Below, piece by piece: positions 1 to 5,206 of a stretch of 37,526 nucleotides of DNA. The position numbers and the translations under genes are program-made. The stretch lies in assembly GCA_013791995.1 (NCBI GenBank), contig VMSS01000231.1, forward strand, positions 1-37,526. Direction: 5' to 3'. This stretch comes from Desulfurivibrio sp. Its GTDB lineage: Bacteria; Desulfobacterota; Desulfobulbia; Desulfobulbales; Desulfurivibrionaceae. The notes beneath the pieces are model-generated. The model did not search any database and was not told the origin of the DNA. It saw only the letters and a program-made list of their open reading frames with translations. Position 1 is the first letter of the stretch. Each line of letters begins with the position of its first letter.

Positions 1-1953
1 CATGGCAAAACCAATCCCGGCGCGGCGAACCCTGTCCACGAGCAGAGACAATGCGTCTTCCCCCGAAGCATCGATGTCATTGATGCCGTCAGCTACCAGA
101 AGGATAAACTTCAGCGCAGGATTAGCCGTGCGAATCCGGAACACCTGTTCATCCAGATAACTGGCATTGGCAAAAAAAAGTGTTCCGTCAAAACGAATCA
201 CCGCGATGTGGCTGCACACCCGAAGGCCGTGATCGATGGTACATCCCAACACGCCATCGTTGCTCATCGCCAGGGTCGAAACATTGGGATGCATCCGTCG
301 ATACAAAAAGACTGCCACGGAAAGAAAAACTCCCAGCAGAATCCCCTTGTCCAGATGGGGGGCAAAAACAAGGGTCGAACAAAAACAGGTCACAGCGATA
401 ATTCCATCCGCCTTCTGCGCCTTCCAGGCATGAACAAACCCTTTCACCTGCACAAGACTGATAACCGCCATCATGATTACTGCAGCGAGAACCGCCTGGG
501 GCAAATGATACAGAAGGGGCGTCAGAAACAATAAGGTCACGGTAACAACGATTGCGCTGAAGACATTTGATAGCCCTGTTTTCCCCCCGGCCTGCAGATT
601 CACTGCTGATCTGGAGAACGAGCCTGACACAGGATAGGAACCGCTGAAAGAGCCAATGATATTGGCCAGTCCCTGCCCCATCAACTCCTGATTGGCATCA
701 AGCTTTTGCCCTGTTTTCGCGGCAATGGCTTTGGCGATGGAAATGGCCTCCATGAAACCGAGCAGGGAAATAATCGCGGCATAGGATAGAAGCTGCGAAA
801 ATGCCTGGAGGTTTAATTCCGGAAAGCGCAAGGAAGGAATACCCTGGGGGATATTGCCAACCACCGCTCCCCCGCCGGTCAAAACCAAACTGTATTCCGA
901 CAAAGCATTGTTGCCCACCTTGATCCGCCATGTCCGCCCGTCCACTTTCATTTCCGGCGGAGCCTCCCCCTTCCGGAAGAAGACAACCCCATCTTCCGTC
1001 TGAACCGAGTCAAGTTGCAAAGTACGCAAGGCTGCTCTGCTTGCCTGCATATTTCCCTTGGTTTTTTCGAGCAGAAGGCTCTGCACCGCCTTATTGTGCT
1101 GCATTTCCAAAAGCGCCAACGGATCCCCGGCGCTCCCGCTCTCCATCGCATTGATCGCGTCAATCACCGTTGATCGCTGTTCACCATAAAATTTTATTTT
1201 TTCCACGCCGAGATTGAACTCTGCCACCTGTTCCCGGATTTCCTCTGAACGAAAATCGTCGAGAGATACCGTCTGGTGACGCTCAAAGCCGGTGAGCCAG
1301 GAAATCAGGGTAGTGATCACAACTGCGGCCAGAATTGCTGGTGCTTTCGGGTACGCTCTTTTCAAGCCCACCATTATGGCGATGGCCAGGGCAGCCATGC
1401 CGAATGTCGGCCAGTGGATATATTGCACACCCCTCTGCAACACAAGAAAAATGGTTTCGTAATGGTATCCCGCCTTGTCAACCTCAACCCCGAGTATTTT
1501 CGACAACTGCGAAGTAGCTATAATAATGGCGGCAGCATTGGTGAAACCGCTGACCACCGGATGGGAGAGAAAATTGACCACCAGTCCGAGCCTGAAAACA
1601 CCCAGACAGAACTGAAAGAGGCCTACAATAAGAGCCAGCATGATGGCGTAGGCGATAAACTGCTCACTGCCTGCAGTGGCGATGGACTCAAGAGACGCTG
1701 CGGTCACCAGGGAAACCACCGCCACAGGACCTGTGGCAAGCTGCCTGCTCGACCCGAAAAGGGCCGCCACCATCGGCGGGAGAAAGGAGGCATACAGGCC
1801 GTAATAGGGTGGCAAGCCGGCAAGCTGGGCATAGGCCATGGACTGAGGAATCAGGACCAATGCCACGGTAATGCCGGCCAACGCATCCGCCTTGAATTTT
1901 TCCTTGTCGTATTCCCTGAGCCAGGGCAGAAACGGAAACAATTTTAGAAGCAA
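1..1953 (-). CDS. SulP-family inorganic anion transporter with STAS domain (3' end cut by window edge)
   Basis: This is an inner-membrane anion permease, probably for sulfate or bicarbonate; the substrate cannot be read from sequence. 651 codons are visible and the frame is still open at base 1. The N-terminus has the SulP signature: residues about 25-60 contain ADALAGITVALVLIPQSMAY and the motif GLPPYYGLYASFLPP. Hydrophobic segments follow to about residue 220, then a polar insert (about 223-361), then VVGNIPQGIPSLRFP, which normally directly follows the membrane helix. A C-terminal STAS domain ends the visible part (DINDIDASGEDAL near residue 635). No ATG is available. I place the start at TTG 1953, 9 nt after a GGGGG ribosome site and downstream of an in-frame TAG. 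It lies 59 nt downstream of purE and may share its transcript. Confidence 0.88.
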   Translation of the reverse strand, partial: MLLKLFPFLPWLREYDKEKFKADALAGITVALVLIPQSMAYAQLAGLPPYYGLYASFLPPMVAALFGSSRQLATGPVAVVSLVTAASLESIATAGSEQFIAYAIMLALIVGLFQFCLGVFRLGLVVNFLSHPVVSGFTNAAAIIIATSQLSKILGVEVDKAGYHYETIFLVLQRGVQYIHWPTFGMAALAIAIMVGLKRAYPKAPAILAAVVITTLISWLTGFERHQTVSLDDFRSEEIREQVAEFNLGVEKIKFYGEQRSTVIDAINAMESGSAGDPLALLEMQHNKAVQSLLLEKTKGNMQASRAALRTLQLDSVQTEDGVVFFRKGEAPPEMKVDGRTWRIKVGNNALSEYSLVLTGGGAVVGNIPQGIPSLRFPELNLQAFSQLLSYAAIISLLGFMEAISIAKAIAAKTGQKLDANQELMGQGLANIIGSFSGSYPVSGSFSRSAVNLQAGGKTGLSNVFSAIVVTVTLLFLTPLLYHLPQAVLAAVIMMAVISLVQVKGFVHAWKAQKADGIIAVTCFCSTLVFAPHLDKGILLGVFLSVAVFLYRRMHPNVSTLAMSNDGVLGCTIDHGLRVCSHIAVIRFDGTLFFANASYLDEQVFRIRTANPALKFILLVADGINDIDASGEDALSLLVDRVRRAGIGFAM

Positions 1954-2012: not shown

Positions 2013-2513
2013 CTAGGCTTTGCCTTTTTTAAGCTCTGCAGACTTTTTCATCAGGTTTTCACGGGTTTTCACCCTGAACTTTTCTAACTCTCCTGCGACT
2101 TCAGGATATTTGATCGATAAAATTTCACAGGCGAGATACGCTGCATTCTTTGCGCCATCGATCGCAACGGTTGCCACCGGAACCCCCGGAGGCATCTGGA
2201 CCGTGGCGTACAAGGCGTCAACTCCGTGCAAAGCACCGGAAGTCAGAGGCACCCCGATAACCGGCAAAGTGGTGTGGGCGGCAATAACCCCGGCAAGATG
2301 CGCTGCCATTCCGGCTCCGGCAATAATCACCTCAAGTCCGCGCTCTCTTGCGGTACCGGCATATTCCGCTGTTTTATCCGGAAGCCGGTGTGCAGAACTG
2401 ATATCTATTTCGTAAGGGATACCCATTTCTGCAAGCACCGCTCCCGCCTTTTCCATAACCGGAAGATCCGATTCGCTGCCCATCAGAATTCCAACAAGTG
2501 GTTTGCTTTGCAT
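2013..2513 (-). CDS. purE: N5-carboxyaminoimidazole ribonucleotide mutase, class I PurE
   Basis: PurE converts N5-CAIR to 4-carboxy-AIR in cytosolic purine synthesis. The protein has 166 residues, the usual class I length. Visible motifs are GSESD (12-16), SAHR (40-43) with the catalytic histidine, GAGMAAHL (66-73) and QMPPGVPV (106-113). The frame is open 16 codons further upstream, but ATG 2513 is preceded by AAGGAG at 6 nt and gives the family N-terminus, so I chose it. The stop is TAG. No purK is seen nearby. The gene lies 90 nt downstream of the P-loop protein gene with no terminator between them, suggesting co-transcription. Confidence 0.95.
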   Translation of the reverse strand: MQSKPLVGILMGSESDLPVMEKAGAVLAEMGIPYEIDISSAHRLPDKTAEYAGTARERGLEVIIAGAGMAAHLAGVIAAHTTLPVIGVPLTSGALHGVDALYATVQMPPGVPVATVAIDGAKNAAYLACEILSIKYPEVAGELEKFRVKTRENLMKKSAELKKGKA

Positions 2514-2603
2514 TGTTCTCTCCTTTGTGCGGATTTTTCCGGTGCATTGACGCACCAGCATTTTTAATCTGAATAACTGTATTATTTCCTCTGCTCCACA
2601 GAC

Positions 2604-4409
2604 TCATGGCGCAAGCTTTATATCTCCCAGGGTGGCGATAACCCTCAACAACGCTCTGGCCGCTTTTTCAGGTCCGGAGGCCTCATAACCGGGGATGCCA
2701 AGTCGTGTCCGAAGCTGCCCAACCTTTACTCCGGACTTGAATGCCGCAGCAAAAGCCATACCGGCCAGATCTTCATGCAATTCTTTGTATTGTGGCGGCC
2801 CGAATATATTGGCAAAATACGAATGAACCAGGCCGGTGGATGTTGTCGTCCCCTTGGCCATCACTGCTCCTTCCCGGAAAACGTTCAGCGCCTGGGCAGG
2901 ACTCGTAAATTGTTCAAGGATAGGATGCTCCGCATCGACCTCTTCATAATTATTGGCGTACAACAGATAATCCAGGGGATACCCTTTCAAGACATCTTCA
3001 ATGGTCGCCACCGGCAATACGACACGGGCGTTGACTTTCTGCGGGCTCATGATGATGGCCCGATCAATCTGACCAAAGGCATAGCCTTGCTGCAGATCAT
3101 CCAACCGGATGAAGGCGCCTATTTCCGTTCCATAGGCAATAAGCCGTCCTGTCTCATCAATCTCGATTGAACCCATGTCATCGGCGACAATCCGCATTTC
3201 CCGAATATACGTTTCCCCGAGAATGCGGAACGCTTCCAGGGTTTCTGATTTCCCTGCAGCCGTATCCCCGACAAGCAGAATATTGGCCTCGATCCCGCTT
3301 TTGACAAAACCGCCTTTGAGGGAAATATGCACCATGGCACCATGAAAGGGCAGGCGGCCCCGTTTCATCATGATCACATTGTGGAGGGTCAGGGTCATCT
3401 TCTTGAGATAGCCGAAATAGCCGAACCTATCTTCGAGCGGTACAGCGGCAACCAGCAGATCATGCCCATCATCATCAAAAAACACCGTGGGCAAATCCCC
3501 GAATTGGGCCATCTGTTCCGGTGGGGCGCCAAAAACGTATACTGCAGCGGGGCCGGCACAAATCTGTTCATCCGTGGCCAATTCAAAAAGGTTTGCAACA
3601 GAGGAACCCAACCCCATAAATCGGTGGTGAAAATAGATAAAAATAACGAGCGACCCGACCTGCGCCGGATAACAGAGAAAATCCTCTGGTACTAAAACCA
3701 GATCAAGAAGCGGGTTGACCTCTGTACGCTGGAATTGCCCAGTGCGCTTATTTGTCGGCGGGTCGATAATCAGGGGAGGAGCTATCCATATCTGGCGGAT
3801 AAATGGTATTTCTCCTAAAATTTTTTCATACGATTCCGGCAAGCCGGAATCTTTTGGCACAGCGATAATGCCGACCTTGCATCCGGCCGCAACATGTCGA
3901 TATACCCGTGGATGACTACCGGTTATATTCTCGCAAATATTGCGATACAAGGAGCGGACCTGATGCGCCAATAAAACGAGCGTCTCATTAAAAGCTCGGT
4001 GGGGACGCTGATCCATACAGTTTGGCCCTGGCTCGGAATACAGCACCATATAACGATCAAAAGACCGCCAATAATCGTACAATTTCTCTACAAATTCATG
4101 AAAAGCCTGTCGCCGCAATGGCTCAGACAAGAAAGCCGCCGATGGCAGCAGTGAAACAACCTGCGCCACCGGATGTTCGCTCAATGATTTTAAGATATTG
4201 ATGAACAGCCTCTTCTCCCTGTCACTTTCGAGAGCCAGCCCTAATTCTGCAAGCAAGGGCGATTCGTCGAGGCGAAGGTCTGCTATGTACAGGTTGAGCA
4301 ACTCGTCGAATACTTCACTGTGGATGAGTTCTCTTTGCGACTCGCAGATCTTGCCATCGGTGCTGATGATAATTTGCCGCCCTTGCCGTTGGATTTTTTT
4401 TGCCGCCAT
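2604..4409 (-). CDS. Uncharacterised 601-residue P-loop protein, HPr kinase / PEP carboxykinase-like
   Basis: I do not recognise a characterised family for the whole protein. The C-terminal half has a Walker A motif GDTAAGKS (381-388) followed by ET, then VADD (408-411). This layout resembles HPr kinase/phosphorylase (GDSGIGKSET then RLVADD) and the related PEP carboxykinase fold. Further conserved-looking segments are HGAMVHI (356-362) and YGTEIGAFIRLDDL (426-439). The first 330 residues are mostly helical and acidic and match nothing I can name. No signal peptide or membrane span is evident. ATG 4409 has CGGAG 9 nt upstream; the stop is TGA. Two intrinsic terminators sit directly upstream of the start codon. 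A nucleotide-binding kinase-like role is inference; no PTS genes are in the window. Confidence 0.7.
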   Translation of the reverse strand: MAAKKIQRQGRQIIISTDGKICESQRELIHSEVFDELLNLYIADLRLDESPLLAELGLALESDREKRLFINILKSLSEHPVAQVVSLLPSAAFLSEPLRRQAFHEFVEKLYDYWRSFDRYMVLYSEPGPNCMDQRPHRAFNETLVLLAHQVRSLYRNICENITGSHPRVYRHVAAGCKVGIIAVPKDSGLPESYEKILGEIPFIRQIWIAPPLIIDPPTNKRTGQFQRTEVNPLLDLVLVPEDFLCYPAQVGSLVIFIYFHHRFMGLGSSVANLFELATDEQICAGPAAVYVFGAPPEQMAQFGDLPTVFFDDDGHDLLVAAVPLEDRFGYFGYLKKMTLTLHNVIMMKRGRLPFHGAMVHISLKGGFVKSGIEANILLVGDTAAGKSETLEAFRILGETYIREMRIVADDMGSIEIDETGRLIAYGTEIGAFIRLDDLQQGYAFGQIDRAIIMSPQKVNARVVLPVATIEDVLKGYPLDYLLYANNYEEVDAEHPILEQFTSPAQALNVFREGAVMAKGTTTSTGLVHSYFANIFGPPQYKELHEDLAGMAFAAAFKSGVKVGQLRTRLGIPGYEASGPEKAARALLRVIATLGDIKLAP

Positions 4410-4446
4410 AATGAATTACTCCGAACACATTGCGTGATTGCAAAGC

Positions 4447-4490
4447 AAAAAAAAGGCCGAGGAATCCTTTAACAAGGATGCATCGACCTT
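4447..4490 (-). terminator. Intrinsic terminator (second of a tandem pair), 37 nt before the P-loop gene start
   Basis: On the minus strand an 8-bp outer stem (AAGGTCGA with TCGGCCTT, one G-U pair) encloses an inner ATCCTT/AAGGAT hairpin and is followed by eight T residues. It lies inside the 5' leader of the 601-residue protein gene, so it may be an attenuator and not only the end of an upstream transcript. Confidence 0.8.
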
Positions 4491-4550
4491 TATTCCAAGA
4501 ACCGCTCTCAAACCTGAGTCGGCTGGACAAAATATCATTTATATTGTAGG

Positions 4551-4596
4551 CAAAAAAAAACCGCACAATATCAGAAACAAGTCAGATATCGTACGG
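4551..4596 (-). terminator. Intrinsic terminator (first of a tandem pair)
   Basis: On the minus strand a 12-bp stem (CCGTACGATATC with GATATTGTGCGG, two G-U pairs, otherwise perfect) with a 12-nt loop is followed by nine T residues. It comes 126 nt after the MpsC-family gene stop and just after a promoter-like sequence. Confidence 0.85.
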
Positions 4597-4651
4597 TCCT
4601 TTCCTGGCAGGTGCTTTTGACACCCCCCAAGTCTCAACCTCTTATAGCCAC

Positions 4652-4680
4652 AACTTACCTTCCGATCAGCAGGAAGTCAA
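4652..4680 (-). promoter_or_regulatory. Candidate sigma70 promoter upstream of the tandem terminators
   Basis: Minus strand TTGACT, a 17-nt spacer, then TAAGTT. The -35 matches consensus at 5 of 6 positions; the -10 is weak (3 of 6). It lies between the MpsC-family gene and the two terminators, so a transcript from here would run into both before reaching the P-loop gene. The 312-nt gap 4410-4721 otherwise holds nothing I can identify. Confidence 0.35.
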
Positions 4681-4721
4681 CGGGAAATAGTATCTCGGTT
4701 CACCAAAGGGCAAAAGAGCTT

Positions 4722-5087
4722 TCAAGACAGATCCGGCACCGAATTTAGAGTGAACAAAATTATTCTCTCGCCGGTAACAGTGCTGATGTCCGTATGCAAA
4801 CTTTTGACTTTCTCGCCTATGATTCCCTCGATGACCGCCTCCAGCAATGGCCGTCCTTTTTCAAGGAGGGTACAGCGTACCTGCTTGATCAATTCTCTAC
4901 CGTTGGAAACATCGGCAGCACCTGCCAACTGGTATTCCGCTTTGGTCAGTACCCCTTTCAGGCGAACAAGAACCATGTCATCAACAATGTAAGTCTTGGT
5001 TTCAAGAGGGCCTCGGCCCATATATTCCTTTTCAAATCTGATGATCGCCTCGCTTATCTCCGCTTCGATCATTCCAGTACTCTTCAT
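4722..5087 (-). CDS. DUF2294 / MpsC-family small protein
   Basis: This is a 121-residue soluble protein of the DUF2294 family (Pfam PF10057, now named MpsC after a cation/bicarbonate-linked membrane-potential system in staphylococci); its molecular role is poorly known. Family hallmarks are the N-terminal GMIEAEISEAIIRFEKEY stretch, GRGP (24-27), DDMVLVRLKGVLT (36-48), KAE (49-51) and the C-terminal HTDIST..GERIILFTL (98-114). The length equals that of single-domain members. I start at ATG 5087, with GAGGA 7 nt upstream; the frame extends 20 codons further without a ribosome site. The stop is TGA. It is isolated by terminators on both sides, and no MpsA/MpsB partner is in the window. Confidence 0.8.
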   Translation of the reverse strand: MKSTGMIEAEISEAIIRFEKEYMGRGPLETKTYIVDDMVLVRLKGVLTKAEYQLAGAADVSNGRELIKQVRCTLLEKGRPLLEAVIEGIIGEKVKSLHTDISTVTGERIILFTLNSVPDLS

Positions 5088-5206
5088 TTTCGTTTCCTCT
5101 GTTGTCTGCCCAAAAAACCAGCAGCTAAAACGACATCCCCACCCCACTTATCCAAAAAGCAGCTGTGGTTGTTTTTACCCCAATGAAGTGCGACCTGCCG
5201 GAAGCA

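Follow-up and report, generated by a model that had tools for sequence, protein, structure and literature searches.

What does a protein do whose P-loop recalls that of HPr kinase, but which is about twice the size of that enzyme? The question is raised by a gene on the minus strand of the window, the whole stretch of 37,526 nucleotides of Desulfurivibrio DNA that was analysed. A first-pass annotation, made from the letters alone, had described its 601-residue product as a P-loop protein of the HPr kinase/PEP carboxykinase (PEPCK) superfamily. That placement and the size difference hold, and the interpretation as a whole is partly supported. As set out below, we consider it reasonably probable that the protein is a divergent PEPCK with PEPCK chemistry.

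The PEPCK-Like Gene and Its Surroundings

1..1950, minus strand: SulP anion carrier with a STAS domain, truncated where the contig begins (PF00916, E-value 1.2 × 10−109, and PF01740)
2013..2561, minus strand: purE, AIR carboxylase (PF00731, AIRC, E-value 9 × 10−63), 42 bp downstream of the PEPCK-like gene
2604..4409, minus strand: gene for the PEPCK-like protein, 601 aa; open reading frame confirmed, homologues found
4722..5147, minus strand: MpsC/DUF2294 protein, 141 aa, upstream neighbour (PF10057, E-value 1.8 × 10−37)

The reading frame covers exactly 2604-4409 on the minus strand and consists of 601 codons with an ATG start and zero internal stops. Because homologues with 90% and 86% identity to the protein were found in two genomes of the same genus, we regard it as a real gene. 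The motifs singled out in the first-pass annotation were recovered at residues 381-390 (P-loop GDTAAGKSET) and 409-411 (ADD). Both neighbours that it had named, purE and a SulP carrier, are in place, the latter running off the start of the window. The upstream neighbour, which it had left unmentioned, is a clear member of the MpsC/DUF2294 family; rplQ and rpoA also lie upstream in the window.

The SulP carrier was considered as a member of a conserved gene unit and rejected. Among the compared loci, only the window and L017 have a SulP match (E-value under 10−10), and a third locus, L142, shows one by eye, so it is a local neighbour of the PEPCK-like gene. The Pfam match of this carrier (P0002; window positions 1-1950, minus strand) falls in two stretches, and by eye a long hydrophilic stretch lies between its membrane parts (region of approximately residues 225-375).

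A Predicted PEPCK Fold with an Additional N-Terminal Domain

2607..3866, minus strand: predicted PEPCK fold, residues ~182-601 (N- and C-terminal PEPCK domains), from the model, Foldseek, VIA and hhalign
3870..4409, minus strand: additional helical domain, residues 1-180, without recognised fold or family, modelled separately

As the first-pass annotation had stated, no curated family covers the protein. Its scores lie below the cut-offs of PF01293, PF00821 and NCBIfam, the best Pfam match being Hpr_kinase_C (E-value 0.22; 11.5 bits, cut-off 33.3) and the best NCBIfam match a PEPCK (E-value 0.093; 11.3 bits, cut-off 369). A sequence search of the PDB returned zero matches for the protein and an unconvincing best E-value of 0.058 for the family profile. 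Among 48 family members, the NCBIfam PEPCK model NF006821 was matched by 34 at E ≤ 0.01 (best 6 × 10−8) and the NCBIfam HPr kinase model by three; in Pfam, PEPCK_ATP was matched by eight members versus two for Hpr_kinase_C at the same threshold (best Pfam E-value 8.3 × 10−4). A member from Limosilactobacillus fermentum, 37% identical over 490 columns and annotated as PEPCK in its record, matches PEPCK_ATP with an E-value of 2.1 × 10−5 and 23.9 bits, just under the cut-off of 26.5. This member also has a weak P-loop match to DUF4914 (PF16260, E-value 0.016), a family with no match to the 601-residue protein at E-values up to 10. Passages of papers on lactobacilli name PckA or PEP carboxykinase (PMC8909743, PMC3022021, PMC6821008).

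An AlphaFold2 model built from 48 aligned members (pLDDT 86.3, pTM 0.88) predicts that residues ~182-601 form the whole two-domain PEPCK fold. The best Foldseek match of the model was the Thermus ATP-PEPCK 2pc9_C (E-value 1.6 × 10−13), and the best VIA match was likewise the ATP-PEPCK of Thermus (Z 17.2, rmsd 3.0, 348 aligned residues, model residues 194..601). All 50 Foldseek and all 50 VIA matches, among those listed, were PEPCKs. ATP-PEPCK (EC 4.1.1.49; PF01293, NF006821; PDB 2pc9, 1ayl) has the two-domain fold and the catalytic residue equivalents in common with the protein. Nevertheless, structural alignments give only 12-17% identity among the matches listed, ATP-PEPCK lacks the N-terminal domain of ~180 residues, and its P-loop reads GLSGTGKT versus GDTAAGKS in the family consensus. 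The predicted fold is also that of GTP-PEPCK (VIA Z about 15, alignments of as many as 387 residues), yet the GTP-PEPCK family PF00821 is unmatched by the protein at E-values up to 10 and has no match in the genome of the window.

The first-pass annotation had found 330 N-terminal residues unassignable. This stands for a helical part of ~180 residues, but residues ~182-330 belong to the N-terminal domain of the predicted PEPCK fold. Modelled separately, residues 1-181 reached a pLDDT of 83.6. A Foldseek search of the PDB with this domain gave nothing below an E-value of 1 (best 1.3), VIA gave a best Z of 5.1 to a globin with phycobilisome proteins lower, which we took as chance, and Pfam gave zero families at E ≤ 0.01.

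Profile comparison with hhalign matched the family to 11 ATP-PEPCKs with an E-value of 3.1 × 10−6 over 218 columns. At the lowest alignment threshold, this match extends colinearly over 358 columns and residues 180-601 (E-value 2.8 × 10−6), with low confidence at the ends. The match to a profile of seven HPr kinases had a lower E-value, 1.4 × 10−7, though over a shorter stretch of 63 columns round the P-loop only. Two observations thus speak against a PEPCK: no curated threshold is reached, and the HPr-kinase profile has the lower E-value. HPr kinase/phosphorylase (PF07475, TIGR00679) shares the P-loop, HG and ADD region in those 63 columns, but its score here is below the cut-off, the HPrK N-terminal family is not among the matches listed and HPr is absent from the genome. 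Given the sub-threshold score, the short similarity versus the longer PEPCK match, and the absence of HPr, we rejected an identity as HPr kinase. The HPr-kinase-like C-terminus of the first-pass annotation is therefore a genuine, if sub-threshold, signal in a protein whose nearer relative is PEPCK (358 versus 63 columns).

Active-Site Positions and Predicted Reaction

Conservation was counted in 89 dereplicated members, with positions mapped by the 218-column PEPCK profile alignment. We take the relevant residues of E. coli PEPCK to be Y207, G209, K212, K213, H232, K254, T255, D268, D269, N331 and R333; in this order they correspond to Y331, G333, K336, K337, H356, K387, S388, D410, D411, N460 and R462.

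3399..3419, minus strand: YFGYLKK, residues 331-337, equivalents of Y207, G209, K212 and K213; Y331 87/89, G333 89/89, K336 89/89, K337 87/89
3342..3344, minus strand: H356, equivalent of the Mn ligand H232; 89/89
3246..3269, minus strand: P-loop GDTAAGKS, residues 381-388; K387 87/89, S388 88/89 (Thr in the other member)
3177..3185, minus strand: ADD, residues 409-411, equivalents of D268 and D269; D410 88/89, D411 89/89
3024..3032, minus strand: NAR, residues 460-462, equivalents of N331 and R333; N460 88/89, R462 89/89
2799..2864, minus strand: low-confidence segment, residues 516-537 (pLDDT under 50), at the place of the PEPCK omega-loop lid

The Lys, His and Asp of the Mn site, K213, H232 and D269 in E. 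coli PEPCK, are thus retained as K337, H356 and D411. The same holds for the P-loop Lys and Ser/Thr and the second Asp (K387, S388 and D410), and for the PEP/oxaloacetate residues Y331 and R462, although the alignment is weaker around R462. There is no TGRSP motif, in which R65 lies; the alignment is uncertain there and R222 (88/89) is a candidate equivalent. By the 358-column alignment, segment 516-537 may be equivalent to the mobile omega-loop lid. A review of the PEPCK mechanism treats CO2 as substrate, the Mn site and the omega-loop lid (PMC8100219).

For a divergent PEPCK, the most likely reaction would be oxaloacetate + NTP <-> PEP + CO2 + NDP. K337, H356 and D411 would form the Mn site, K387 and S388 would belong to the P-loop, and R462 would serve as the PEP/oxaloacetate arginine, while Y331, G333 and the mobile lid would complete the site. 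The helical domain of ~180 residues would be an addition to the PEPCK fold. The first-pass annotation had proposed that the protein may phosphorylate or sense something other than HPr. This fared less well, as oxaloacetate or PEP and CO2 are likelier substrates than a protein serine.

All exceptions among the 89 members occur in L005 and L023, which are sister sequences on the tree. Both L005 (genome G037) and L023:10001-11767 have lost Y331, K337 and K387, and L005, which sits on a long branch, has also lost a P-loop glycine. These two look catalytically dead and possibly represent a pseudoenzyme lineage.

Distribution and Relation to Canonical PEPCK and HPr

Counting its own genome, the gene was found in 5/58 related genomes, in three of the 17 genomes of the genus and in 11/297 genomes of a phylum sample. 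The genome_contigs collection (84,980 species) holds at least 507 confirmed relatives. The 80 loci used come from Desulfobacterota-like genomes, Planctomycetota, Bacillota, Actinomycetota, Omnitrophota, Bacteroidota, Spirochaetota, Woesearchaeota and others, so that the family reaches archaea besides many bacterial phyla. A family tree made by a quick method intermingles these phyla, which is consistent with transfer between them. Phage records gave zero matches and plasmid records one.

We checked for canonical PEPCK and HPr in 50 carriers chosen from the 80 loci, mostly draft genomes. PEPCK_ATP exceeded its cut-off in 21, in some cases with a weak or fragmentary match, and PEPCK_GTP in 16; 34 carriers had at least one of the two and 16 had neither. 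Among the 58 relatives, an ATP- or GTP-PEPCK match was found in none of the five carriers versus 23 of the 53 non-carriers, a difference that is not significant (Fisher p 0.15). Canonical PEPCK was likewise found in none of the 27 genomes of the taxonomic family, whether or not they carry this gene, and in none of the 17 genomes of the genus, 14 of which lack the protein. Simple replacement of canonical PEPCK is therefore unsupported by the 34/50 carriers that hold both, by the p-value and by the pattern in the genus. HPr (PF00381) had no match in the whole genome of the window, which is 95.5% complete, and the lack of a PTS partner reported in the first-pass annotation thus extends to genome scale. 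Across the 50 carriers, HPr was present in 25 and Hpr_kinase_C exceeded its cut-off in ten. Because HPr occurs in 25/50 carriers and canonical PEPCK in 34/50, the protein family has no fixed link to the PTS, and it is not a plain substitute for canonical PEPCK either.

If the protein proves to be an active PEPCK, an enzyme between PEP and oxaloacetate would be missing from the flux models of many uncultured anaerobes, since neither ATP- nor GTP-PEPCK was found in 16/50 carriers, mostly draft genomes. It might also be a piece of how anaerobes handle CO2 and central metabolites.

Related genomes also encode further divergent PEPCK-like proteins, 568-624 aa in length (L133:332-2035, L134:378-2249 and L135:400-2223). 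They are above the Pfam cut-off for PEPCK_ATP with scores of only 49-54 bits and far under the NCBIfam cut-offs; such weak matches were seen in 11/58 relatives. Two Omnitrophota genomes have tandem PEPCK_ATP genes, and at L102:3-1283 (minus strand) a second PEPCK_ATP copy follows a HAD-hydrolase domain in a single frame.

MpsC as a Companion Gene

MpsC was found in six of the 58 relatives, namely in all five carriers and in one of the 53 non-carriers (Fisher p 1.3 × 10−6, which overstates independence as the carriers are mutually related). The sole non-carrier with MpsC, G020, is 85% complete. In G037, MpsC and the PEPCK-like gene share a contig but are about 23 kb apart. MpsC was present in the examined flank of 25 of the 88 dereplicated loci; of the 80 loci that could be scored, 22 have it upstream in the same orientation and no more than 1.2 kb away. 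Loci with MpsC upstream belong to Desulfobacterota-like genomes, Planctomycetota, Goldiibacteriota, Armatimonadota, Atribacterota and Spirochaetota, and the tree requires no fewer than 12 changes of this trait. In Staphylococcus aureus, mpsC sits beside the bicarbonate transporter genes mpsAB and is reported as dispensable for MpsAB (PMC6689103, PMC8552792). Our literature search found no function for MpsC/DUF2294 and nothing that joins any two of MpsC, DUF2294 and PEPCK. The tight co-occurrence gives a concrete hypothesis for the function of this family, in which MpsC would be a functional partner or regulator of the predicted PEPCK.

The presence of MpsC in all five carriers could also fit a kinase of the PEPCK/HPrK superfamily that phosphorylates another substrate and owes its specificity to the N-terminal domain; this substrate could be a small molecule or a protein, possibly MpsC. 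The HPr-kinase profile match, no weaker than the PEPCK one, points the same way, as do the few members that match the NCBIfam HPr kinase (3/48) and Hpr_kinase_C (2/48) models and the other PEPCK match already present in 34/50 carriers. We nevertheless consider such a kinase rather unlikely: YxGxxKK and NxR are matched by the PEPCK alignment outside the 63 columns shared with HPrK, HPr is absent from the genome itself and from half of the 50 carriers, and a local MpsC is missing at most loci.

Other Genomic Neighbours

Neighbouring genes in the examined flanks of the 88 dereplicated loci included PFOR (n = 9), purE (n = 8), aroC (n = 6), purC (n = 5) and aroA (n = 4), and more rarely beta-carbonic anhydrase (n = 3) and a gamma-type hexapeptide protein (n = 3). 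One or two members of each neighbour cluster were checked against Pfam, and the counts are raw numbers of loci. A theme of CO2, PEP and aspartate is visible among these neighbours, although it is minority- and clade-based and carries little weight. Because carbonic anhydrase, PFOR and purE or purC recur nearby in some lineages, the predicted PEPCK might lean towards CO2-linked supply of oxaloacetate.

The same PFOR, purE, purC, carbonic anhydrase and hexapeptide genes could instead accompany an enzyme that has the PEPCK fold but catalyses another CO2- or carboxylate-related reaction, for example one that provides purine synthesis with carboxylated intermediates beside purE or purC. We think this improbable, as each association concerns a minority of loci, several are confined to a single clade and much of the count is explained by shared ancestry; moreover, the aromatic genes aroC and aroA are about equally frequent.

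In the Planctomycetota loci L031, L035, L038 and L040, aroA (EPSP synthase, a PEP user) and aroC are close to the PEPCK-like gene. At L094:5016-7424, a gene for a membrane H+-pyrophosphatase (PF03030) lies 23 bp downstream of it.

A Candidate Regulatory RNA in the Leader

4447..4491, minus strand: hairpin with U-run resembling a terminator, located between the leader hairpin and the gene (-20.8 kcal/mol, z -4.2)
4483..4532, minus strand: conserved leader hairpin (model R1), candidate regulatory RNA (43.7 bits, E-value 5.5 × 10−9, training sequence)
4551..4606, minus strand: second terminator-like hairpin, nearer MpsC (-28.7 kcal/mol, z -6.0), kept in L016 and L017

The region between MpsC and the PEPCK-like gene is strikingly conserved in L016 and L017. 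Model R1 was built from a motif spotted by eye in 15 loci. Scanning 91 sources (1.20 Mb) with it recovered the 15 training sites and two untrained ones, with the next match at an E-value of 0.7. One untrained match, L026:946-995 (plus strand, E-value 9.6 × 10−6), lies about 80 nt before a PEPCK-like gene. The other, L142:1279-1327 (minus strand, E-value 0.0021) in genome G020, lies between MpsC and purE, so that the leader hairpin is present there though the PEPCK-like gene is absent. Leader hairpin and terminator precede the PEPCK-like gene in 16/88 loci, and all 16 of these motif-bearing loci have a hairpin with U-run between motif and gene, as an expression platform would. The motif was found in 15/25 loci with MpsC in the flank versus 1/63 without (p 1.4 × 10−9, from related sequences).

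Covariation supports this structure. In an alignment fitted to it, 91.1% of cells pair and both sides change in eight of ten pairs, which 2/500 shuffles reach; the covariation score was reached by 0/500 shuffles and the number of further pair types by 16/500. In an unfitted alignment of 17 leaders made with MAFFT, RNAalifold predicted 31 pairs, 25 of them with changes on both sides; these belong to the motif hairpin, to the terminator and, in the case of four pairs, to a hairpin further upstream. Rfam recognised only tRNA above the gathering score in the window and no leader, four sub-threshold matches in 4400-4760 having E-values of 0.5-4.4; the leaders of L018, L020, L021, L022 and L039 also gave nothing above the gathering score. 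A simple consensus scan for terminators listed neither of the two folded hairpins (4447..4491 and 4551..4606), and a consensus scan for promoters gave no more sites than in shuffles. In the titles and abstract openings searched, with subscription journals mostly uncovered, we found no description of the protein family or of the leader.

Taken together, the leader is probably a new cis-regulatory RNA. Its hairpin resembles an on/off switch, and expression of the gene may be governed by termination ahead of it, that is, by transcription attenuation. The predicted PEPCK variant outside the Pfam and NCBIfam cut-offs and its link to MpsC are new as well. A more speculative possibility, which we put forward tentatively, is that the family constitutes a third sequence class of nucleotide-dependent PEPCK in many bacterial phyla and some archaea, with expression under the control of an RNA switch not described before. 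This switch would either respond to a metabolite from the PEP-oxaloacetate-CO2 node or be a binding site for MpsC, and in the latter case the orphan MpsC family would acquire a function for the first time. As a candidate regulator, the leader RNA is compact and has obvious ligands to try.

L005 and L023 have kept long open frames and the leader RNA despite their lost catalytic residues, as might an inactive or regulatory PEPCK relative acting as a sensor, but a general loss of activity is very improbable because the other 87/89 members retain the listed catalytic positions and the two exceptions are sisters, with L005 on a long branch, as local loss predicts. Upstream of the motif, a strict second GG/UG hairpin was found in 5/17 leaders versus a shuffle mean of 0.2, which is suggestive of a larger RNA.
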